Shown: piece by piece, positions 28,905 through 61,265 of the stretch
Layout: the number at the start of each line of letters is the position of its first letter
How positions within the stretch are numbered: the stretch's first letter is position 1
From: Adhaeribacter pallidiroseus
Lineage (GTDB): Bacteria > Bacteroidota > Bacteroidia > Cytophagales > Hymenobacteraceae
Assembly (NCBI RefSeq): GCF_003340495.1
Contig: NZ_QASA01000001.1
Location: 5,890,001 to 5,954,000, forward strand
Length of the DNA stretch: 64,000 nt
Direction: 5' to 3'
Notes under the pieces: model-generated
The model's database searches: none
What the model was told of the DNA's origin: nothing
The model's input: the letters and a program-made list of their open reading frames with translations, nothing else
Translations under genes and position numbers: made by a program

Positions 28905-29669
28905 CTATTTTTCAACTTGCTGTAGATCCTTTGTTTTATCCGTGACCAGGTCAACTTCCAGAAAAGCTTTATTAGTAGGCAATACCAACGATAATTCGTG
29001 GTATTTTTCTGTTTGAACCGTACCCCTTTCCATTATAAAGTCCAGCACATGCCCGCCCCGTTTTCCATCGGCCGATAAAAAATGCAGGTGAAAGCCCGGT
29101 ATATTTATTCCCTTTACATAAGCGGGGCTTCGAAAACCTACCAGGGTGCCCCTTATATTTTGGTAATTAAAAACCGATTGTTGATCCACTATTTGGGTCA
29201 TTTTGGGATAAGGCTTCGTTTGCGCCGGAACACTGCGTACCTTAATCGAAAAAACACCTTCCACCCAGATAGCATAGGATAAATTAGGGGAAGCGAGCAC
29301 CTTGTCCATTTCTTTTTGGAAGGAAGTATACGTTAGATCGTCTGGTAAATGGTGTTGTTGCCCTTCTTGGAAAAAAGAGACCGTTGCCCACGGAATGCGG
29401 GTAGTATCCTGTACTTCCTGGCTCGAACCATCCGCCTGAATCTGGTATACTTTCCCGTTCAGCATTAGCAGCTCACCATTTAAGCTGTGAAATGTACCAA
29501 TACCAAAATTGCCACGTTGCTTTAATTCCTTCACGGTAAAGGTGCCCTCATACAAGCCGGCTAATAAAGCATCGATGGTGGAAAAAGTAGTAGCCACGCC
29601 TTTTTGGGCAAAAACTTGATTAAAATTTAAAAAAAAGGTGAATAATAAAATTAAACGAATAAAATGCAT
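28905..29669 (-). CDS. budA: Acetolactate decarboxylase, exported
   Basis: This enzyme decarboxylates alpha-acetolactate to acetoin using zinc. Family blocks are TIDALLAGLYEGTFTVKEL, NFGIGTFHSLNGELLMLNG, VYQIQADG, YQNIRGTLVGFRSPAY, and GFHLHFLSADGKRGGHVLDF with the zinc-binding His cluster. The start at 29669 gives 254 residues headed by a signal peptide (MHFIRLILLFTFFLN ... VFAQ). An ATG at 29771 would add 34 residues, also hydrophobic in part. No acetolactate synthase is nearby. It shares a strand and a close junction with the membrane protein upstream. Confidence 0.92.
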   Translation of the reverse strand: MHFIRLILLFTFFLNFNQVFAQKGVATTFSTIDALLAGLYEGTFTVKELKQRGNFGIGTFHSLNGELLMLNGKVYQIQADGSSQEVQDTTRIPWATVSFFQEGQQHHLPDDLTYTSFQKEMDKVLASPNLSYAIWVEGVFSIKVRSVPAQTKPYPKMTQIVDQQSVFNYQNIRGTLVGFRSPAYVKGINIPGFHLHFLSADGKRGGHVLDFIMERGTVQTEKYHELSLVLPTNKAFLEVDLVTDKTKDLQQVEK

Positions 29670-29774
29670 CGGGGTAATAGTCATCTTAGTAGGGTTAGAT
29701 AGCAGCCCCTGGATAAAGCCGGTTCGCAGCAAAACGCTTAGAATTTTTCCCGCCACTGCTTGATTCCGCAAGAA

Positions 29775-30401: not shown

Positions 30402-31970
30402 TTATTGCAGAAGAGCCGGATTAGTGGTAGCGCCAATGGAAGTAGAACCTTGAAAACCAGAACCGATTGACTGCTTTTCGCCGTACACGTTTACGCTGAA
30501 TAACTTAGTACCGCTAATGAGGTACAGTTTGCCCGAATAACCAGTCATTAGCGTGGTGCCGGGGAAAACTGCGCCACCCGTTACCGCGCCGGTTGCCACA
30601 TTCACCCGAAACAGCTGATCGCCGCGCAACACGTAAATTTCGTCGGAGGTGCCGTCCATGGCGGCAATTCCTTTTACATCGTACCAAGACTGGCCGGTTA
30701 TATTCATTTCCGGTTTACCCGTAGTGGTGTTAATCTTGTACAAAACATTTTTCCAAATCATGTACACGTAATTCTTATGGTAGTAAATGGCCTGGGTGCC
30801 GCTCCAGTTCTCCAGGGCTTGGGGTCCGCCCAGGCGGGTATGATTGCCGTATTTATCAATCTTCCAGAGCCGGATGCCTTGCTGGGCGTATAAGTTACCC
30901 TGCGGATCTTTCCCCGTTACGCCCACCGGGTTTTCCCAGTAACCGTTCCCCACCTTTTCGTAGGCGCCATTAAAGCGGTTTGTTTTCCATAAGTTCAGGC
31001 CTTGCATGCCCCAGATGTAGCGATCGTCTTCGGCCAGCGTTTTCGCGGCACCATCCCAGCCCGGACCCAGGTTGGCCATGCTGCCATCTTTTACATTTAC
31101 CGCGAAGAGAGAACCTCCCTTAACAATGTAGAGGTTCGCGTACATCGAAATGACGGTTTGGGCATCTAAACTTGTCGGGGTGGTGCTGGGGTCAATAGGT
31201 TGCCCGTCTTTCCGGGTCATGGTTGGCTGGTTGTTTTGCGAAAAAACCAAGGGACCATACATCATTACCGACTGATAATCGAAAGAGCCTAAATCAAATC
31301 CATATCCTGCCGGCCAGCGGTTAAAATAGGGCCTTGCTTCGGGCTTGATATTGTTCCAGTGGATGGTGAGGTAAATTTCCCGGTCCTGCCGGATGTGTTC
31401 GTGAAATAAGCCAATGGCATGGCCGATTTCATGGGTAACCACCCGGAGGCTCCAGTCATCTACTAACCAGATGTTTTGCGGACCGCCTATCCGGCCGACA
31501 CTGGATAAGTTGATATTTGGGTCTTTCACAAACTTTATATAGTCTTTCTCATTTGTCCGTTTTACAAAGTCGAGTGGGGTCCTTATTTCCCAGGCAGCAA
31601 TTGCCTTTTGGATAATATCCTGCCGCATGCCCGGCTCTATTTCGTAAGGGATGGTAAAATTTTGCCAGCGGTAGTTCTTGTTGGCCATGCCGGCGCCACT
31701 GGTGCGGGCAACGGGGCTGGTCGTACTCTCCGATAAATCTTCAGCGGTAAGTGCTATATCTCCTTCCAGAATAGCCTGGCCATTTACTTCCTGGTACGTG
31801 ATGGGTATACCCCGGAAAGTACCTTTTTTAAATACAGAAGTGCTATCGTTTGGGGTACTATCTTTTACGGCATTAGGTACTTGTTTTTCTAAATCTTTTT
31901 CGCAGGAGGTGAGCAACGAAAAAGACAATAGAATTCCGGTTGCCCAAAAGGGCAAAAATTTTGTTTTCAT
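30402..31970 (-). CDS. Astacin-like (M12A) metallopeptidase lipoprotein with beta-propeller tail
   Basis: A 522-residue lipoprotein (SLLTSC, Cys23). Residues ~97-275 form an astacin-type protease: IPYEIEPGMRQDIIQKAI, then the zinc site HEIGHAIGLFH at 180-190 (HExxHxxGxxH) and the Met-turn SVMMYG at 235-240. Residues ~280-522 carry about six short repeats of the tectonin/propeller type (GSLFAVNVKDGSM, RFNGAYEKVGNGYW, WYDVKGIAAMDGTSDEIYVL), probably for binding surface glycans. The signal contains FLPFWATG, almost identical to the alpha/beta hydrolase at 38715. A deleted relative lies at 20315-21023. Confidence 0.92.
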   Translation of the reverse strand: MKTKFLPFWATGILLSFSLLTSCEKDLEKQVPNAVKDSTPNDSTSVFKKGTFRGIPITYQEVNGQAILEGDIALTAEDLSESTTSPVARTSGAGMANKNYRWQNFTIPYEIEPGMRQDIIQKAIAAWEIRTPLDFVKRTNEKDYIKFVKDPNINLSSVGRIGGPQNIWLVDDWSLRVVTHEIGHAIGLFHEHIRQDREIYLTIHWNNIKPEARPYFNRWPAGYGFDLGSFDYQSVMMYGPLVFSQNNQPTMTRKDGQPIDPSTTPTSLDAQTVISMYANLYIVKGGSLFAVNVKDGSMANLGPGWDGAAKTLAEDDRYIWGMQGLNLWKTNRFNGAYEKVGNGYWENPVGVTGKDPQGNLYAQQGIRLWKIDKYGNHTRLGGPQALENWSGTQAIYYHKNYVYMIWKNVLYKINTTTGKPEMNITGQSWYDVKGIAAMDGTSDEIYVLRGDQLFRVNVATGAVTGGAVFPGTTLMTGYSGKLYLISGTKLFSVNVYGEKQSIGSGFQGSTSIGATTNPALLQ

Positions 31971-32214: not shown

Positions 32215-32838
32215 TTAAACTAAGTTTTTACAATACCTATTCATTAGCCTTTCTTCCTCTCCGCGTTTGCGGGCCCGGGCAGCCAGAAACTTAAGTAGAG
32301 GAGCAAGCAGTACGAATATACCGGGCAAGGAGGTATCGCCCATTTCGGCGATTAAAGCAGTCAGGGCTAAACTCTTGGGCAAGCCTTTTTTATCTGTTTG
32401 TCCATCCTGGGCCAGGCCGTACAAGATGCGCAGCATGTACTCAAAACCTTCGAAGCCAGGGGAGAGAACTAGATTAAACCGGATGGTTTCCGGACCGGGG
32501 TTAAAAAAATAATGAACTACTCCAATCGGCACGGTAAATGTTTCGCCGGGTTTCAGAATAACTGTTTTACCACCTGCCTTTACTCCTAAGTTTCCTTCTA
32601 ACGCCGTAAAGGTTTCGCTGTATTTTCGGTGAATATGCGGTACATTCTTGCCCCCTGGTAAAAGAGTTACTTCGCACTCGCTGTATTTTCCATCGGTTTC
32701 CACCGCCCTTTTTATAAAGGTGGCGGTATCTTTAAAAATAGGATTAACGATGGTACGTCCCGGATTTTCATCTGTTCCAGTCATTACTTTATTACTCTTT
32801 TTGGTATCTGGATGGGAGATAACTGCGTTTGCTTTCAT
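32215..32838 (-). CDS. Cupin-domain protein (family C)
   Basis: A 207-residue cytosolic cupin. Motif 1 is KNVPHIHRKYSETFTALEG, and motif 2 is GETFTVPIGVVHYFFNPG. It is followed by the same GFEYMLRILYGLAQDGQTDKKG helical segment as family A. The N-terminus (MKANAV ... GTDENPGRTIVNPIFKDTA) is duplicated as a fragment at 33775-33903. The promoter region carries the paired 18-bp palindromes shared with two other units, so it is probably co-regulated with the membrane cupin and the sigma factor. Confidence 0.85.
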   Translation of the reverse strand: MKANAVISHPDTKKSNKVMTGTDENPGRTIVNPIFKDTATFIKRAVETDGKYSECEVTLLPGGKNVPHIHRKYSETFTALEGNLGVKAGGKTVILKPGETFTVPIGVVHYFFNPGPETIRFNLVLSPGFEGFEYMLRILYGLAQDGQTDKKGLPKSLALTALIAEMGDTSLPGIFVLLAPLLKFLAARARKRGEEERLMNRYCKNLV

Positions 32839-32891
32839 GGGTTTATGAGATTATTATTTGGCAAAGAGCGGGAAATTAGCCTTAAGCAGCA

Positions 32892-32972
32892 ATCCCCGAA
32901 AACGGGGATATTCGTAAGAAAAAGTAGAAATTTGTAAAATCAGCGAATTAATCTATCCTCAATTGTGGGGAT
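32892..32972 (-). promoter_or_regulatory. Paired 18-bp palindromes, set 1 (cupin C promoter)
   Basis: ATCCCCGAAAACGGGGAT at 32892-32909 is a perfect palindrome around AAAA. ATCCTCAATTGTGGGGAT at 32955-32972 is near-perfect. Centres are 63 bp apart, six helical turns, and the nearer one is ~60 bp before the ATG. Conserved DNA between and beside them (GTAAGAAAAAG, TTGTAAAATCAG, GGCAAAGAGCGG) matches sets 2 and 3. Confidence 0.75.
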
Positions 32973-33067
32973 TATTCCTTCCACAACGCATCGGAGATAA
33001 GCTACTCGGGTGAGCACCATACTGGTTAAAGTACACCTCCGGGTTAAACTCGCTCCGGGTAGCAATA

Positions 33068-33754
33068 TTATATTGGTTTTTTCCATTTCTTGGAATATTG
33101 CGGTTTCCAGGTCCGGTAGCCCAAGAGCCTCGCCGTTGGCGCCAGAAGAAACGAAAGAACTTTTTGGGCCAGTATAGGAATATCGGCGGTGTAGGTTCGG
33201 TAATAATCAACAAAGAGCATGGCCTGTAAAAAAAATTCTGCTTTTGATCTGGGTCGGTCTTTTTCCGTAAAGAATCCGTGGGTCTGGGCCAGCATTAGAT
33301 CATGTTTAGCAGCCGGGACGACTCGATTAATCGTAACAATTTCCTCATTTCCTTTACTAACCGGTTGGTGAGCCGTGCCTCTGGGGATTGTCAAGGAATC
33401 GCCCGGCTGAAGTACGTGCTCCGAGCCGTTGCAGATCACCGTTAGACTTCCTTGTATAACTTTAAACGTTTCATCATAGTCGGTATGCATGTGGGCGCGG
33501 GGCACGGCTCCGCCCGGTTTGAGACGGAATTCCCGTAAAGAATACGCTCCGTTGGTTTCTATCCCGCTTTTAAGAAAAGTGATTTGCTCCCCGGCAAATG
33601 GATTGGTAATCACGTCTCCCGCAACCGGGTACATGGTATTATGGGGAAGCGGTTCCGGGAAAACATAACGATGAATAAATTGCCCAACAAAAATATATAC
33701 TAATAGAATGCAGATGATCACGGAAATGAGCCGGTAAAATTTTTTAATAAACAT
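33068..33754 (-). CDS. Membrane-anchored cupin protein
   Basis: Start ATG 33754 (MFIKKFYRLISVIICILLVY) gives 228 residues with one N-terminal membrane anchor; the cupin would face the periplasm. Motif 1 is PRAHMHTDYDETFKVIQG, and motif 2 is GDSLTIPRGTAHQPVSKG. A C-terminal region (LAQTHGFFTEKDRPRSKAEF ... VDYYRTYTADIPILAQK) has no cupin counterpart. Directly upstream lie the first 42 codons of a family C cupin and the shared palindromic promoter, so this gene seems to have taken over that promoter. The function is unknown. Confidence 0.82.
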   Translation of the reverse strand: MFIKKFYRLISVIICILLVYIFVGQFIHRYVFPEPLPHNTMYPVAGDVITNPFAGEQITFLKSGIETNGAYSLREFRLKPGGAVPRAHMHTDYDETFKVIQGSLTVICNGSEHVLQPGDSLTIPRGTAHQPVSKGNEEIVTINRVVPAAKHDLMLAQTHGFFTEKDRPRSKAEFFLQAMLFVDYYRTYTADIPILAQKVLSFLLAPTARLLGYRTWKPQYSKKWKKPI

Positions 33755-33774
33755 ATTCAAACAAACAGGTAGGT

Positions 33775-33903
33775 TTAGCAAACAGATGATGCGGTATCTT
33801 TAAAAACAGGATTAACAATGGTGCGATCCAGAGCATCGGTGCCCATCAATACCTTACCATACTTTCTAGTCACAAGGCTTGCCCTAAATTCAATAGCTTT
33901 CAT
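33775..33903 (-). pseudogene. 5' fragment of a family C cupin gene
   Basis: ATG 33903 opens a 42-codon frame, MKAIEFRASLVTRKYGKVLM then GTDALDRTIVNPVFKDTA, matching the N-terminus of the cupin at 32215-32838 (GTDENPGRTIVNPIFKDTA). Similarity ends after KDTA and a stop follows. It still has the palindromic promoter and leads into the membrane-anchored cupin gene, so it may now act as a leader ORF. Confidence 0.8.
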
Positions 33904-33957
33904 GTGTTTTTTTAAATTTTTATCGGGCAAATAGCGGTAAATTAGTCTTTAGCGACA

Positions 33958-34037
33958 ATCCCCAATAGTGGTGATTTTGTAAGTAAAAGAGGCACCTTGT
34001 AAAATTAAAAGAGTATCCCATCCCCATATTGGGGGAT
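33958..34037 (-). promoter_or_regulatory. Paired 18-bp palindromes, set 2 (membrane cupin unit)
   Basis: ATCCCCAATAGTGGTGAT at 33958-33975 and ATCCCCATATTGGGGGAT at 34020-34037 have centres 62 bp apart. Flanks CAAATAGCGGTAAATTAGTC and CTTGTAAAATTAAAA match set 1. Confidence 0.75.
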
Positions 34038-34092
34038 TACTTCTTCCTAAACAAATGTGGGAGAAGTTACCAGGGCGGGTAATAGGCTGGAT

Positions 34093-34124
34093 AAAAAGCT
34101 CATTAATATTAACGAGGCTTTTTA
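34093..34124 (-). terminator. Probable terminator of the DUF1772-like gene
   Basis: AAAAAGCTC and GAGGCTTTTT pair with a one-base bulge around an AT-rich loop. It lies ~105 bp beyond the stop of the membrane gene at 34230 and before palindrome set 2, insulating the two units. Confidence 0.55.
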
Positions 34125-34229
34125 TAGGAATTTAAAAAAAATAACTTTTTTACGGTTTAGAGATAAGTAAAGGATGCAGTCTTTGCTCATGCAGGGCACA
34201 ATGCTATAAGCTTACCATTCCGGATATTT

Positions 34230-34745
34230 TTAAATTTCTGTTCGGTAAGCGGCTTTCTGATTAAAAGGAATAATAGAAAGGGAAGCAAAGGAAACCAGGG
34301 CCAATACCAACCGGTTTTGAAAATTACTAATTGATGTTGTTTGAGCGCGTGCTAGTTCAGTCATGCTCTTTGGGGTGAGGTGTGCTAAGTCCAGTTGGTT
34401 TATGAATGCATTAATGGGCAACTGTTGGGTAAGGGTAAAGCCAACATCTACCAAGAACATTATAAAGGAGAGCAGTAGTAAAAGAAGAGTAGGGCTTTCC
34501 CAATTTTTTAAGTGTAAGGCTATATTCACCACAAATAGCCCGATCATCAAGGGTCCCATAACTCCCATGCGCCGGTGCATAAAAGTACCGTCCACTATTT
34601 TCCAGTAACGGCCATACTCCAAAGGCGTTAATTGCGTTTCCACCGGGCACATTTCGTGGAAAAAGTGCATACCGGCGTACAAGCCAACCACCAGGAGCAA
34701 TAGGTAGAGTAAAATGTTTTTAAAGGAATAAAGGAGGAAACTCAT
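34230..34745 (-). CDS. Four-helix membrane protein, DUF1772-like
   Basis: Start ATG 34745 gives 171 residues: a first helix LYSFKNILLYLLLLVVGLYA, then GMHFFHEMCPVETQLTPLEY, GRYWKIVDGTFMHRRMGVMG, two middle helices, TLTQQLPINAFINQ and a last helix. The polar pattern (GxHFFH, W/F-MHRRM, LPIN) resembles DUF1772/anthrone-oxygenase-like proteins, which use no known cofactor. An upstream ATG at 34814 would add 23 residues. The enzyme role is only a possibility. Confidence 0.65.
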   Translation of the reverse strand: MSFLLYSFKNILLYLLLLVVGLYAGMHFFHEMCPVETQLTPLEYGRYWKIVDGTFMHRRMGVMGPLMIGLFVVNIALHLKNWESPTLLLLLLSFIMFLVDVGFTLTQQLPINAFINQLDLAHLTPKSMTELARAQTTSISNFQNRLVLALVSFASLSIIPFNQKAAYRTEI

Positions 34746-34939
34746 AAAATTTGAAAATAAAAAAGTAAATAATAAAATAAATGGATTAGACTCTATGCCA
34801 TTAGGCAGTTCCAAGATTCATGAAATTTACGAGCTCGATGCTGCTTTTTACATTGACCCTGCGGAATAGGTATAGTTCTTTAGTACTAAAAAACTAATTA
34901 TTAATTTTAAAAAATCCGGTTGTTTAACAAGGATGAGAA

Positions 34940-36232
34940 TTAATCTGGCTGATTCCCCACCATAGTTTGCTTCTGAACCAAGGTGTTAATACAGCCTGTG
35001 ATAAACTGAGCATCTTCTTTAATACCAAGTAGCAAACTCGACTTCCGGTTTCTGAGCCAGGGAAGCCCCAAAAAGTACAAGCCTTTTACCAAGGATTTAC
35101 CTTGTTGGTGCACCGGATTACCCGTTTCGTCGAAAACCGGCAATTGAATATACGCCATAGCCGGCCGAAAACCCGTTGCCCAAATAATAGTGGAAATGCC
35201 TTCCTTACGGAACTGGATAGAACCTGGGTGGCCGGACAAATTCAAGGAATTATCGGGTTCATCGTCGGGGTCTGGTTCTGCCGTAGGCGCGGGCAGATGT
35301 TTCTCGGCAATAAAGTTGTCAATAAAACCTTTCACCTGTGCAGAGAACTCATCGGCAAAACTTACATGTGCCCCGGCATCTTCTGAAAAGTAAGCAAAGT
35401 CATTTACTACATCTTGTAGTTTGCCCAATAAGATAACTCCACTGCGTGCCAGAGACTGCAGACTCAAGGTTTTTCGGCCATTGTCGTTGCCCTTCAGCAG
35501 CGGTGTTCGCACATGTAGTTGGGCGGAGTCCGCGATATCTTCGGATCGGACGTTGAAAAATCCGGTGAGGATCAGCCAATCCATAATATCTTTGCCCCGG
35601 TAATACCGGGGGCACCGGGGCACTCTACTGGTAGAAAGATAAACGATTCGCCCGGCCAGGATTAGGTCTTCGGCAATTTGGCAACCCGATTGCGCACTTC
35701 CCACCACCAACACACCGCCTGCGGGTAAATCAGCCGCGGTTCGGTATTCACTGCTGTGTAATTGCTTGATTTTCGCATCGATCTTACCAGCTAACCTTGC
35801 TGGTTGTTTTTGACTTTGCGCTCCCGATGCTACAATTACTTGCCAACAAGAGTAGGTTTTGGTACTACCATTTTGCACTGTTTGTATTTCAAATAATTCG
35901 GACCCAGGAGCTTTACGCAGGCTTATAACCGTTGTATTCGTCAGTACCGGTAGACCATAATTTTGAACGTACTGCTTCATCGAGGCCACTAAATTTTGAG
36001 CCGTTCCGAAGCTGTCCGGCTCCGTTTCATCGGTTTCCCAGCCGGGTAAGGTATTTAGCTTATTGGCCGTATTCATCCGGAAACTATCCCACCTTTGGGA
36101 CGCCCAGGATTCCCCGATTAAGCCGCGTTCCAATACCACGTGCTGTATTCGGTGTTGTTTTAGAAAGTAGCTGGCGCTCAGTCCCGCATGACCGGCACCG
36201 ATCACAATTACAGCCAAAAGATTTGTGTTCAT
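34940..36232 (-). CDS. Flavin-containing monooxygenase-like (CzcO-type) FAD oxidoreductase
   Basis: A 430-residue two-dinucleotide-domain flavoprotein. The FAD loop is VIVIGAGHAGLSASYFLKQH at residues ~8-27; ESWASQRWDSFRMNT follows as in Baeyer-Villiger-like monooxygenases. The NADPH loop is VLVVGSAQSGCQIAEDL at ~175-191, and the ATGFRPAM motif lies near 360. It probably hydroxylates or oxidises a small molecule. It is 22 bp downstream of the NAD(P)-binding protein gene and probably co-transcribed with it. Confidence 0.9.
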   Translation of the reverse strand: MNTNLLAVIVIGAGHAGLSASYFLKQHRIQHVVLERGLIGESWASQRWDSFRMNTANKLNTLPGWETDETEPDSFGTAQNLVASMKQYVQNYGLPVLTNTTVISLRKAPGSELFEIQTVQNGSTKTYSCWQVIVASGAQSQKQPARLAGKIDAKIKQLHSSEYRTAADLPAGGVLVVGSAQSGCQIAEDLILAGRIVYLSTSRVPRCPRYYRGKDIMDWLILTGFFNVRSEDIADSAQLHVRTPLLKGNDNGRKTLSLQSLARSGVILLGKLQDVVNDFAYFSEDAGAHVSFADEFSAQVKGFIDNFIAEKHLPAPTAEPDPDDEPDNSLNLSGHPGSIQFRKEGISTIIWATGFRPAMAYIQLPVFDETGNPVHQQGKSLVKGLYFLGLPWLRNRKSSLLLGIKEDAQFITGCINTLVQKQTMVGNQPD

Positions 36233-36254
36233 GGTAAAAGAAAAATTTAAAAAT

Positions 36255-36893
36255 TTACTTTAAAGCGGGCATCAGACGCACTGGTTGGCGCAGATAACGC
36301 ATATCGGTTAACAGGCTCAACATAAAATCCGCGATGTCCGCCCGGGATAAGGCAGGGGCAAACCGGTTGGATTTTAAGTTTTCGCCGCTTCGGTATTTTC
36401 TGGTGAGGGGGCCGTTCGTTAAAATGGGTGCCCGTACAATTTGCCACTCTAAATCTGATTCGCAAATCATTTTTTCTCTAACCTCGTGGCCTTTAATTTC
36501 GGTTCGCAAGAGGGTAGGCGCTAAATTTCGGATTATAAATCCCGCATCGTTCCGGCTTTCTGATACGCCTAAAGTAGATAAATAGACTAAGCGGCGGACG
36601 TTACTCGATTGCATGGCTTTGATAATATTGGCCATCCCATCCAGTAAAGCCTGGTCTAATTGAAACATATGGTCCGCGCCCAAGGCCGAAACCACTACTT
36701 CCTGTCCGGCTATGGCTCGTTGCACGCTAACTAAATCGCTCACATTCCCTTGCTCTAAGGTTAGAGCCCGATGAGAAACTTTTAATTTTGCCGGATTACG
36801 CAAAAAAGCGGTAACCTGGTGTTTCTGTTCCAACGCCTGCCGGACCAGATGGCGGCCGGTAGCACCGGAAGCTCCTAGAATCAGAATTTTCAT
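36255..36893 (-). CDS. NAD(P)-binding SDR/NmrA-like protein
   Basis: Start ATG 36893 gives 212 residues beginning MKILILGASGATGRHLVRQAL, the Rossmann loop. GQEVVVSALGADHMF, VRRLVYLSTLGVSESRNDAG and LEWQIVRAPILTNGP are the typical NmrA/YwnB-type blocks. It resembles the protein at 11627 but has a GASGATG loop and a different C-terminus. It sits between the monooxygenase and sigma factor genes in one minus-strand run, 57 bp after the sigma factor stop. Confidence 0.88.
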   Translation of the reverse strand: MKILILGASGATGRHLVRQALEQKHQVTAFLRNPAKLKVSHRALTLEQGNVSDLVSVQRAIAGQEVVVSALGADHMFQLDQALLDGMANIIKAMQSSNVRRLVYLSTLGVSESRNDAGFIIRNLAPTLLRTEIKGHEVREKMICESDLEWQIVRAPILTNGPLTRKYRSGENLKSNRFAPALSRADIADFMLSLLTDMRYLRQPVRLMPALK

Positions 36894-36950
36894 GTTGTTT
36901 TTTTTCCTAAGAGACTGCATCTGGTTCTAAAGTTCGGTGTTGATTTAAAT

Positions 36951-37874
36951 TTATTTTTCCGATGGGTGAAAAAAGACCCGACTGGCTTTGCCTTTATCCC
37001 GGTTAATAATAGCTACCGACGTAGGCGGGCAATGATCCGGGTGTTCGCTGGAATTAAAGTGCTGGGCTTCGATAACCGAGACACGGCCGCTGCTAAAAAC
37101 CCGGACCGGTTGCAACCAGCTACCTACCCGGCGATCTTCCTCCACCATATTTTCTAATACCTGCCCTCCGGAAGAACTTTTGCCGTTTGGAAACAAAATC
37201 TGGCTATGCTGCAAATGATTTATAAATTTAATTTTGCTGCTTTCCTGTGCGTGCATCTCCCCGTAAAGCGATTGGTAGAAACTATTCCACTCTTCGTTTT
37301 CCCGGAGATGAACATCGCTGGCATCATCGTGTTTTTTCCACGCTTCTTCCAGCTTGCGTTTGGCCTCACTCAGGCGGCTTCTCACGGTGCCTATCGGCAC
37401 CGCCAAAATAGCGGCGATTTGTTCATACGTTTGATAATTAGAAAAATAGCGCAGTACCAAGGTGCTATGCAGCACATCGGGTAGTTGCGCCAAGGCACTG
37501 TAAAGCTGGTTTTGGGAAGAAATCTGCTCCATTTGCCGGTTCATCTCATCTTCCCAATATGCTTCTTTTTCCAGGGCCAAGCTTTCTAACGAAGTATTTT
37601 TTTGATGACGCACTAAAGCCCGATAACTCATGTGGGTGACGATTTGCCGGAGCCAACCAGGAAAATTTTGTGAATCCTTTAGCTGAGAAAGTTTAAGATA
37701 AGCCTTTATAAAGGCTTCCTGCACCACATCGGAAGCCACCTCCGGATTACGGCAAATAGGAAGTGCGATTACGTACATTCCCGGGTAAAAAGTGCGATGT
37801 AGCTTATTCCAGGCGGTAGTTTCTCCGACGGCGGCGGCTTTCACCCATTCGGTATAATTGAGGATTGGAGTCAT
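36951..37874 (-). CDS. ECF sigma factor with C-terminal extension (NTF2-like?)
   Basis: A 307-residue protein. Region 2 covers ~12-90 (AWNKLHRTFYPGMYVIALPI, EVASDVVQEAFIKAYLKLSQ). Region 4 covers ~140-190 (LPDVLHSTLVLRYFSNYQTY, EQIAAILAVPIGTVRSRLSEA), a helix-turn-helix for -35 recognition. About 110 residues follow (RENEEWNSFYQSLYGEMHAQ ...) ending in a beta-rich part; such tails in ECF families often are SnoaL/NTF2-like domains that control activity. No anti-sigma gene is adjacent. Its promoter has palindrome set 3, the same as the two cupin units, so it may be part of the circuit it controls. Confidence 0.88.
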   Translation of the reverse strand: MTPILNYTEWVKAAAVGETTAWNKLHRTFYPGMYVIALPICRNPEVASDVVQEAFIKAYLKLSQLKDSQNFPGWLRQIVTHMSYRALVRHQKNTSLESLALEKEAYWEDEMNRQMEQISSQNQLYSALAQLPDVLHSTLVLRYFSNYQTYEQIAAILAVPIGTVRSRLSEAKRKLEEAWKKHDDASDVHLRENEEWNSFYQSLYGEMHAQESSKIKFINHLQHSQILFPNGKSSSGGQVLENMVEEDRRVGSWLQPVRVFSSGRVSVIEAQHFNSSEHPDHCPPTSVAIINRDKGKASRVFFHPSEK

Positions 37875-37988
37875 TGATTGTTAAAAGCTGATAAGGTACG
37901 TTTTAAGAAGAAAGTCAAAAACAAAAACAGCTAAGGACAAGTGCCTGATATTCAAAAACAAAGTGCGGAAATTTAATCTTTAACAACA

Positions 37989-38069
37989 ATACCCAAAAAA
38001 GGTAGTTTTAGTAAGAAAAAGCAACCACCTGTAAAATCAGGAAAGGAATCTATCCCCGTATTCGGGGAT
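37989..38069 (-). promoter_or_regulatory. Paired 18-bp palindromes, set 3 (sigma factor promoter)
   Basis: ATCCCCGTATTCGGGGAT at 38052-38069 is near-perfect. ATACCCAAAAAAGGTAGT at 37989-38006 is the weakened partner. Centres are 63 bp apart. Flanks CAAAGTGCGGAAATTTAATC, GTAAGAAAAAG and CTGTAAAATCAG match sets 1 and 2. The rest of the 37875-38217 gap shows nothing else. Confidence 0.7.
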
Positions 38070-40692: not shown

Positions 40693-41565
40693 TTACATGA
40701 CCGGGATAGAAGCCTGCGCCCGGCTTTTGTAAACTTCCGAGGCAATACCCAGCCTACTCTCCGGCGAGTTATTTTCTAATAGATGAAAGTCGTTGGGGAT
40801 ATGTTTGGTAAATTCTTTGTAATCTTTAACTAAGTGCTGGTAATCGAAATACCCACATTCCAAAGCAATTCGTAACCAATCTCTATGCGGATAAGCGTTC
40901 TTCAGATGAATGGCTTTGGTAAACCGAATGATTCTCAGGTAGGTTTTAGGATTTACGCCGGTGCGTTCATAAAACTTTCTCGTAAATTGTTTAGTAGATA
41001 AGCACGACTCCCCGGCAAGCCAGTTCAGCGAAGCTTTGCCACCCGAATAGATCATCATCCGGCTTATAGTATCTAATCGGTGCGTTTCTCTTCGGGCATT
41101 GCTGACTAAAGAAGTAACAAAGCGGTCCCCGATGGTTACCATTTGGTGGTAGCTGGCAGCATTTTGCAATTGCTCCAGAATAAGGCGAATATTTTTTGAA
41201 AAAATAAGTTCCGCATCCAGGTATTGATTCGTTAACTCGAAGGCTGAAATACCCGTTAGTTGAAATAAGGCGGTAGGTTGAAAAGCAATGTTGAAGGTGA
41301 TAAAATTTTTGCCCATCAGATACCGATTTAGAACCGCCGTCTGTTGGCCGGCCAGAACGACAGGAAAATTATAATCTACTTTGGGGCCATCACCTAATTG
41401 AACCAGCTCGCGTTCCCGCAGAAAGAAATGAAGACATACTTCCGGCCGGGGTGCATACGCTTTAAATACTGGCTCGGGCGCCTGCACAAAGTCAAAGTGA
41501 ACGATCCGGTAACACTGCACGAATTCCGTTAGCGATGGATGAGGGGTTAAATCTTGTAAAATCAT
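40693..41565 (-). CDS. AraC-family transcriptional regulator
   Basis: A 290-residue protein. The N-terminal ~150 residues match the DUF6597-type sensor half found with AraC domains in this phylum (YAPRPEVCLHFFLRER, GKNFITFNIAFQPTALFQLT). The C-terminal AraC domain has two helix-turn-helix units: SLNWLAGESCLSTKQFTRKF then IALECGYFDYQHLVKDYKEF. It precedes the hydrolase genes on the same strand with 128 bp between, and may regulate them. Confidence 0.9.
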   Translation of the reverse strand: MILQDLTPHPSLTEFVQCYRIVHFDFVQAPEPVFKAYAPRPEVCLHFFLRERELVQLGDGPKVDYNFPVVLAGQQTAVLNRYLMGKNFITFNIAFQPTALFQLTGISAFELTNQYLDAELIFSKNIRLILEQLQNAASYHQMVTIGDRFVTSLVSNARRETHRLDTISRMMIYSGGKASLNWLAGESCLSTKQFTRKFYERTGVNPKTYLRIIRFTKAIHLKNAYPHRDWLRIALECGYFDYQHLVKDYKEFTKHIPNDFHLLENNSPESRLGIASEVYKSRAQASIPVM

Positions 41566-60509: not shown

Positions 60510-61265
60510 ATGAATCTTCAAGAAAAAATAGATTTGAACAATTTGCCAAAACACGTTGCCGTTATTATGGACGGTAATGGGCGTTGGGCAAAACAAAAGG
60601 GAGGAGCCCGAATATTCGGGCATCAGAATGCGATTGCTGCCGTGCGGGATACGGTAGAAGGAGCTGCAGAGTTGGGCATTGAATATTTAACCCTGTACGC
60701 TTTTTCCACCGAAAATTGGAATCGTCCGCAATACGAAGTAAACGCATTAATGGAGTTACTGGTTTCTACTATCCGGAAAGAAACGGCTACTTTAAATAAA
60801 AATAATATTCGACTACAAACCATCGGCGACACCGAAAGCTTACCAAAAACCTGCCGGAGGGAGTTGCTGGAAGCTATGGAAATTACGGCGCATAATTCCC
60901 GCATGACCTTAAATGTTGCTTTAAGTTATAGCGGGCGTTGGGATTTAACGCAGGCTATGCGCCAGATTAGTGGTTTAGTAGCGGCCGGCGAATTGCAGCC
61001 TGCTGATATAAATGAACAACTAATTGCGGAGCATATTGCCACCGCCGGAATGCCTGATCCGGAATTACTTATCCGGACGAGCGGCGAAATGCGCATCAGT
61101 AATTTTTTGCTCTGGCAATTGGCTTATACCGAAATATACATTACCAACTTGCTCTGGCCGGATTTTCGGAAACAGCATTTACACGAAGCTATTTTATCTT
61201 ACCAAAGCCGCGAACGCCGTTTTGGTAAAACCAGTGAACAATTAACGAATAAAAGTATTACTTAA
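60510..61265 (+). CDS. uppS: Undecaprenyl-diphosphate synthase (isoprenyl transferase)
   Basis: UppS condenses eight isopentenyl diphosphates onto farnesyl diphosphate to make the carrier lipid for peptidoglycan and O-antigen. It has 251 residues: HVAVIMDGNGRWAKQKGGAR (catalytic Asp), GIEYLTLYAFSTENWNRPQY, LNVALSYSGRWD, PELLIRTSGEMRISNFLLWQ and YTEIYITNLLWPDF. The RTSGEMR reading has Met where RTSGExR often has Gln or Gly-type residues. Its stop overlaps the bamA start (TAATG). Confidence 0.97.
   Translation: MNLQEKIDLNNLPKHVAVIMDGNGRWAKQKGGARIFGHQNAIAAVRDTVEGAAELGIEYLTLYAFSTENWNRPQYEVNALMELLVSTIRKETATLNKNNIRLQTIGDTESLPKTCRRELLEAMEITAHNSRMTLNVALSYSGRWDLTQAMRQISGLVAAGELQPADINEQLIAEHIATAGMPDPELLIRTSGEMRISNFLLWQLAYTEIYITNLLWPDFRKQHLHEAILSYQSRERRFGKTSEQLTNKSIT

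Follow-up and report, generated by a model that had tools for sequence, protein, structure and literature searches.

Three promoters within a 64,000-nucleotide (nt) stretch of the Adhaeribacter pallidiroseus genome (hereafter the window, G000:C1:5890001-5954000, G000 being this genome) carry palindromes of the type ATCCCC-N6-GGGGAT in pairs, and the locus raises the question of what such evenly spaced pairs do and which protein recognises them. Judged from the DNA alone, they are explained best by a two-operator, activator-dependent promoter, used by a small regulon common to two sister species, whose regulator would activate its targets and also regulate its own genes. This explanation is held with moderate confidence, lowered slightly since the evidence from two of the four autoregulatory sites is only partly independent. 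Genome-wide searches covered 148 genomes, the search for regulator orthologs 59 genomes, and the genus sample eight genomes (G000-G007), among which G006 is the sister species and G003 a third species of the same genus.

Paired palindromes and promoter layout

With at most one mismatch, the palindrome occurs five times in the window, compared with an average of 0.10, and never more than one, among 100 dinucleotide shuffles; the sites starting at 32892, 34020 and 38052 are exact, and those at 32955 and 33958 contain one mismatch each. Pairs lying 60-66 bp apart (sites with at most three mismatches) are found twice in the window versus once across 30 shuffles pooled. At three mismatches, single sites show no excess in the window (27 versus 21.8 expected, 27 being reached by 17 of 100 shuffles). 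The pairs of palindromes are genuine and exceed chance expectation. All three pairs are situated upstream of minus-strand genes, with the gene-proximal sites at 32892, 33958 and 37989:

32955-32972, minus strand: distal palindrome of pair A, sense strand ATCCCCACAATTGAGGAT
32892-32909, minus strand: gene-proximal palindrome of pair A, ATCCCCGTTTTCGGGGAT, then TG (TTG of the -33/-35 region)
32933-32943, minus strand: spacer word of pair A, sense CTGATTTTACA
32862-32865, minus strand: TTTG of the presumed -7 box of promoter A, ending 30 nt past the proximal palindrome
34020-34037, minus strand: distal palindrome of pair B, 62 bp from the proximal one
33958-33975, minus strand: gene-proximal palindrome of pair B
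33998-34008, minus strand: spacer word of pair B, sense TTAATTTTACA
33928-33931, minus strand: TTTG of the presumed -7 box of promoter B
38052-38069, minus strand: distal palindrome of pair C, exact
37989-38006, minus strand: gene-proximal site of pair C, degenerate with four mismatches (hence absent from the list of sites with at most three), sense ACTACCTTTTTTGGGTAT
38030-38040, minus strand: spacer word of pair C, sense CTGATTTTACA
37959-37962, minus strand: TTTG of the presumed -7 box of promoter C

A recount of the sites reproduced the spacings of 63, 62 and 63 bp that the initial annotation of this DNA had given. Its three palindrome pairs stand as far as the five near-exact sites are concerned, which exceed the shuffles, whereas the partner in the third pair is the degenerate one. 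It had further described about 120 bp, including the spacer, as conserved: the shared spacer words are correct, but strong similarity is limited. The spacers of A and C agree at 33 of 45 positions, C and its sister-species ortholog at 41 of 45, and C and the pairs E6 and G6 at 28 of 45, whereas A or C compared with the distant members D and H of the same genome reach 16-22 of 45 (B, with 44 nt, lies outside this comparison).

Altogether, twelve promoters with a pair were found, five in G000, six in G006 and one in G003, several of them degenerate (four mismatches in the proximal sites of C, G6 and the EamA permease pair of G003, and in the distal sites of E6 and the EamA pair of G006). In sense direction, the distal palindrome is followed by a spacer of 45 nt (44 in B, 46 in F of G006), the proximal palindrome and TTTG. 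The two sites are 63 bp apart in ten of the twelve pairs and 62 and 64 bp in the remaining two; for E6 and the two EamA pairs, whose distal sites have 3-4 mismatches, the spacing is taken from an ungapped alignment. From the end of the proximal palindrome to the end of TTTG there are 30 nt in all twelve (TTTG starts 26 bp after the palindrome). Two of these, the EamA promoters of G006 and G003, are not independent of TTTG, being matches of a model that contains it; the remaining ten derive from palindrome searches, the original finding or, for C of G006, the sigma factor ortholog. The same 30 nt separate site and TTTG at the response regulator gene in both sister species, and 38 nt do so at the sensor kinase gene, again in both. 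In the proximal site, the half facing the promoter, GGGGAT-TG, hardly varies, whereas the other half is loose; symmetry is more pronounced in the distal site. Within the spacer, each position of the word TTTTACAG, at about -82 to -75, is conserved in 7 to 9 of 9 aligned sequences, in a set that omits A, B and C6.

The position described for the -7 box TAnnTTTG in Flavobacterium psychrophilum, -12 to -5 (PMC9723704), would place the centres of the palindromes near -43.5 and -106.5 from the predicted start sites, and TTG at -35 to -33. The fixed register, the overlap with the -35 region, the non-consensus -7 box and the phased upstream site together suggest activation, as at the NarL-dependent ogt promoter and at CRP promoters. 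One dimer would bind the proximal site, reach into the -35 region (GGGGAT-TG) and touch RNA polymerase there, whereas a second dimer on the distal palindrome, on the same face of the DNA six helical turns upstream, may add cooperativity or a second contact. The core promoter, with TTTG and without TA in its -7 box, would probably be weak unless the activator is bound. A DNA loop, as envisaged in the initial annotation, is not needed: the distance between proximal site and core promoter is constant, in keeping with an activator that touches RNA polymerase.

A pair of repressor dimers could instead sit on the palindromes, the proximal one blocking the -35 region, a position that repressors use too. 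A repressor would, however, need no register, and the exact 30-nt distance together with a non-consensus -7 box is typical of activated promoters; repression is considered quite unlikely.

Two further candidates were rejected. A hairpin or riboswitch in the RNA leader received no support from base-pair changes (none of 12 base pairs changed on both sides among 10 sequences, and three proximal base pairs unpaired in five of the 10). As to an intrinsic terminator, the T-run after 38069 is on the plus strand whereas the surrounding annotated genes are on the minus strand; inspected by eye, such a run is not general.

A probable small regulon in two sister species

Across the genome of A. pallidiroseus, 16 places match the palindrome with at most one mismatch, versus three for the reversed control pattern. 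Judged by context, ten of the 16 are at promoters of one set: two each at A and B, and one each at C, D, H, an EamA-family permease, a sensor kinase and a response regulator gene. All five exact palindromes of the genome belong to this set. D precedes a gene for a SnoaL-like protein and H a TIGR03118-family gene, the partner site having two mismatches in each case. The complete pair is present at five promoters, namely A, B and C in the window and two more at 2.46 and 3.43 Mb, so that the genome search for spaced pairs proposed with the initial annotation largely turned out as expected, the 63-bp rule also holding outside the window. Its idea of a dual-dimer operator defining a regulon with a sigma factor inside it is supported as a reading by the ten set sites, but the regulon is not local: its members are spread over 2.46, 3.28, 3.43 and 5.92 Mb.

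The six sites outside the set are situated at 60903, 5014306 and 5858416 (these three share CCCCTTCGGAGGGG), 1690213, 3214261 and 6017863; frames were examined for four of them, three of which fall in open frames of 138-300 codons and one does not. In G006, seven of ten near-exact sites belong to the set, and the outside ones are C1:1428681, C1:3094344 and C2:21927. Taking both species together, five of the seven outside sites with checked frames fall in open frames of at least 100 codons. G001 to G005 possess 2, 0, 1, 0 and 0 sites with at most one mismatch (controls 2, 3, 7, 6 and 2). Three counterpart genes are preceded by the pair in both sister species, coding for the sigma factor (81% identical), the SnoaL-like protein (70%) and the TIGR03118 protein (72%).

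The exact core CC-N6-GGGGATTG-N24-TTTG is found four times in G000 and six times in G006, all ten in the set, against three occurrences among the remaining 146 genomes (one in G068, one in G116, one in G131), the reversed control giving two in 148. With one mismatch, seven of nine matches are in the set in G000 (control 2) and likewise seven of nine in G006 (control 3), and the six remaining genomes of the genus yield a single match apiece (controls 0 to 3), that of G003 being the EamA element. A sequence-only model built on ten elements, with rough E-values, found two full-length elements outside its training, G006:117556 (E 4e-9) and G003:1387016 (E 5e-10), and matched the proximal half at G000:3279238 (2.3e-5), where the palindrome was already listed by the pattern search. 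All three matches lie upstream of one gene, that of the EamA-family permease (81-82% identity, Pfam EamA); the EamA gene of G004 (83%) and the 54-59% homologs in G001, G002, G005 and G007 are without the element. At E<=0.001, the model found matches in G000, G003 and G006 only, all of one genus, among the 148 genomes (under stricter filters, by which weak matches are lost). A single core-like site of G002 (C23:199379-199422), before a TonB-receptor-like gene and 4.8 kb from another kinase/regulator pair (regulator 47%), was rejected as a member, as it has no distal partner and is at background level.

The targets in the window and their neighbours are the following:

32215-32838, minus strand: cupin-domain protein of 207 amino acids, target of promoter A (Pfam Cupin_2 1e-14)
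33784-33903, minus strand: remnant of a cupin-gene start (duplicate of the start of the first cupin), 40 codons, between promoter B and the second cupin
33068-33781, minus strand: cupin with a presumed membrane anchor (judged by eye), downstream of promoter B (Pfam Cupin_2 1.1e-14)
36951-37874, minus strand: extracytoplasmic function (ECF)-type sigma factor of 307 amino acids with a conserved C-terminal extension of about 125, downstream of promoter C
36255-36920, minus strand: NAD(P)-binding SDR/NmrA-like protein (Pfam NAD_binding_10 6.5e-43), probably in the sigma operon
34940-36232, minus strand: FAD-dependent oxidoreductase, MSMEG_0569-like (below the model cut-off), probably in the sigma operon

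The gene behind promoter B had been taken for a cupin fragment leading to a membrane cupin; what precedes the membrane cupin is a remnant of 40 codons. Over 40 residues it shares 53% identity with the beginning of the first cupin, so A and B probably go back to a common duplication that carried promoter and gene start. This local duplication spread part of the set, and another kind of CCCC-N6-GGGG pair is present in relatives, both of which would suit a mobile or repeat element (REP- or MITE-like, i.e., of the repetitive extragenic palindromic or miniature inverted-repeat transposable kind) copied near genes without a regulatory role. Such an origin is hardly credible, given the few copies, their constant orientation and register, the divergent spacers and the retention upstream of counterpart genes across two to three species; it was rejected on the constant TTTG register and this recurrence.

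The strict pair pattern CCCC-N6-GGGG-N46-52-CCCC-N6-GGGG is not specific to the set: 13 of 148 genomes match, mostly with another palindrome family, and G000 and G006 contribute a single set match each (D and F, respectively). The other pairs, mostly CCCCTTCAAAGGGG-like, are found in G008, G013, G034, G038, G063, G068, G076, G078, G080 and G091; they are 74-80 bp long overall, with up to 18 partly overlapping matches per genome, and MITE-like.

Concerning the sigma factor, matches to solved structures span only about residues 4-184, and its last 132 amino acids gave no Pfam family at E<=1; ECF41-like sigma factors carry a SnoaL-like domain in this C-terminal position. Full-length relatives exist in four of the 148 genomes (100, 81, 51 and 48% identity), orthologs of at least 81% only in G000 and G006. 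The best 80 of 573 loci in a contig scan with the protein are generic ECF factors of 25-34% identity, near relatives of the window's factor possibly being left out. Near the cupin cluster, an alpha-acetolactate decarboxylase and an astacin-family peptidase are encoded (window 28905-29771 and 30402-31970).

The candidate binder and its rivals

The protein that binds the palindromes, which the initial annotation had called unknown, is not settled, but it can be narrowed to a response regulator, since its own gene and that of its kinase carry the site in two species. The regulator gene (G000:C1:3430847-3431491) adjoins that of a propeller-type sensor kinase; the regulator comprises the domains Response_reg and GerE, the kinase HisKA_3, HATPase, Reg_prop and Y_Y_Y. 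The nearest solved structures of the regulator are VraR, DevR and NarL. NCBIfam equivalogs (NarL, MctR etc.) all stayed below cut-off. Between G006 and G000, the kinase is 73% and the regulator 89% identical, and single sites precede both genes in both species (4/4). NarL heptamers are arranged as a 7-2-7 site, and the CCC-N6-GGG of the present palindromes fits this geometry. The binder is most likely a NarL/VraR-type response regulator, which would be phosphorylated by the kinase encoded beside it, and because both genes carry the site, the system would autoregulate. Its predicted targets are the two cupins, the SnoaL-like protein, the EamA permease, the TIGR03118 protein and the ECF sigma operon, the last of which would make it a cascade from a two-component system to a sigma factor.

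Close regulator orthologs (89-100%) exist in only two of 59 genomes, G000 and G006; in the other 57, matches at E<=1e-40 do not exceed 54% (with up to 51 scored candidates in each genome). G000 and G006 have both element and regulator; G001, G002, G004, G005 and G007 have neither, and G003 has one element but no close regulator ortholog.

Several observations weigh against this explanation. G003 retains the EamA element, with weaker sites (G003:C2:1387016-1387139), but its best regulator homolog is 46% identical; this element may be a relic or serve a different binder. The near-exact palindromes of G006 are, by count alone, weak evidence (10 versus 6 in the control). In G000, the regulator and EamA promoters exhibit the proximal site only. 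The site at the regulator gene overlaps the last codons of the kinase, its left half being partly coding (GGGGATTG and TTTG are both past the kinase stop), and the kinase site of G006 coincides with the distal palindrome of pair D6, which belongs to a divergent lipoprotein-like gene. The distance of 38 nt at the kinase is not one full turn from 30. Among 30 regulator-homolog loci, the core signature (strict pattern) was found within 600 nt upstream of only two, the 89-100% ones; for the 28 more distant homologs the scan covered the regions upstream of the regulator genes. Finally, the TA of TAnnTTTG is present in none of the twelve pair promoters, TTTG in all (e.g., window 32862-32869 and 37959-37966), and an AraC-type protein matches the distribution of the element better than the regulator does.

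An observation of its own is the motif ATCCCC-N4-GGGGAT, with the same half-sites and a 4-nt gap, 377 nt upstream of a 41% regulator homolog in G013 (locus L112).

The AraC/DUF6597-type protein is encoded in the window itself (40693-41565). Regulon and promoter logic would be the same with another binder, foremost this one, kinase and regulator being mere targets. Its clear orthologs occur in exactly G000, G006 (87%) and G003 (55%), with no match at E<=1e-20 in G001, G002, G004 and G007 and only 26% in G005:

G006:C1:4006432-4007295: AraC/DUF6597 ortholog
G003:C2:4640110-4640958: AraC/DUF6597 ortholog

In G006, the TTTG of an element lies about 300 nt upstream of its start, whereas no element precedes the gene in G000 or G003, which gives 1/3 versus 4/4 for the kinase and regulator genes. 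The usual targets of AraC proteins are asymmetric direct repeats, unlike the symmetric distal palindrome, and eight genus genomes are a small sample for a match in distribution. We rank the regulator before the AraC protein as predicted binder: conserved sites stand at the regulator gene as well as at that of its kinase, and a symmetric palindrome is what a NarL-type dimer would be expected to bind. A binder other than the regulator appears unlikely.

The missing TA could reflect a weak activated promoter or an alternative sigma factor. In the latter case, the proximal half (GGGGATTG ... CTTTG) would be the promoter of the set's own ECF sigma factor, feeding back on its gene, and the palindromes partly its -35 element. 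The absence of the housekeeping TA from all pair promoters, the sigma gene as a target, and the restriction of its close orthologs to the two sister species are in line with this possibility. It leaves unexplained, however, the symmetric second site 63 bp upstream and the kinase promoter, where the site is 8 bp further away and the -7 region in G000 reads TAATTTTG. ECF promoters usually have a shorter spacing than that from GGGGAT to CTTTG here. Moreover, G003 possesses the element although its sigma matches are only about 30% identical, and the sigma orthologs of 51% and 48% identity (G105 and G093) have no element at their loci. This role of the sigma factor is rated as rather unlikely.

Known systems and meaning of the operator

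To our knowledge, little is known of the operators of propeller-type kinase/NarL-type regulator pairs, which are numerous in Bacteroidota; no title found in searches of open-licence papers describes one. A comparison is offered by BldM of Streptomyces, a NarL-like response regulator. It binds a symmetric palindrome as a homodimer, whereas the BldM-WhiI heterodimer site has one altered half, in the part of the publication considered (PMC4125116); similarly, the distal sites studied here are symmetric and the proximal ones have an altered half. Unlike in BldM-WhiI, the proximal site comes without a linked second regulator, and a fixed pairing is not mentioned for BldM in that part (PMC4125116). 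Along these lines, the distal palindrome might be read by a response-regulator homodimer and the asymmetric proximal site (ACC-TTTTTC-GGGGATTG) either by a heterodimer or jointly by the regulator and the sigma factor, with a rigid 63-bp enhancer, a third factor at TTTTACAG near -79 and the TA-less promoters transcribed by the regulon's ECF sigma factor. Such a composite is very doubtful; if true, it would constitute a feed-forward two-component/ECF switch.

The two-operator activator promoter resembles that of E. coli ogt, activated by NarL at sites at -44.5 and -77.5, in having two NarL-type palindromes, one abutting the -35 element and one upstream (PMC7419079, in part). It differs in the distance between the sites (33 bp in ogt versus 63 bp here), in the half-site ATCCCC, in the Bacteroidota core promoter and in that a whole regulon follows one layout. 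Activator sites near -41.5 are also described for E. coli class II and III CRP promoters, with further sites near -90 in class III, which in deoC flank the site of another protein (PMC5957442, in part); unlike there, the binder proposed here is unrelated to CRP and the site sequence is another. For Porphyromonas gingivalis, an excerpt of PMC4800418 describes PorXY-SigP, likewise a two-component system acting via an ECF sigma factor in Bacteroidota; there PorX binds the SigP protein, whereas the link here would be an operator at the sigma gene.

In this regulon, operator, spacing, core-promoter register and target set are all readable from sequence, which makes binder and target list testable, and an ECF sigma operon is placed under a probable two-component operator.

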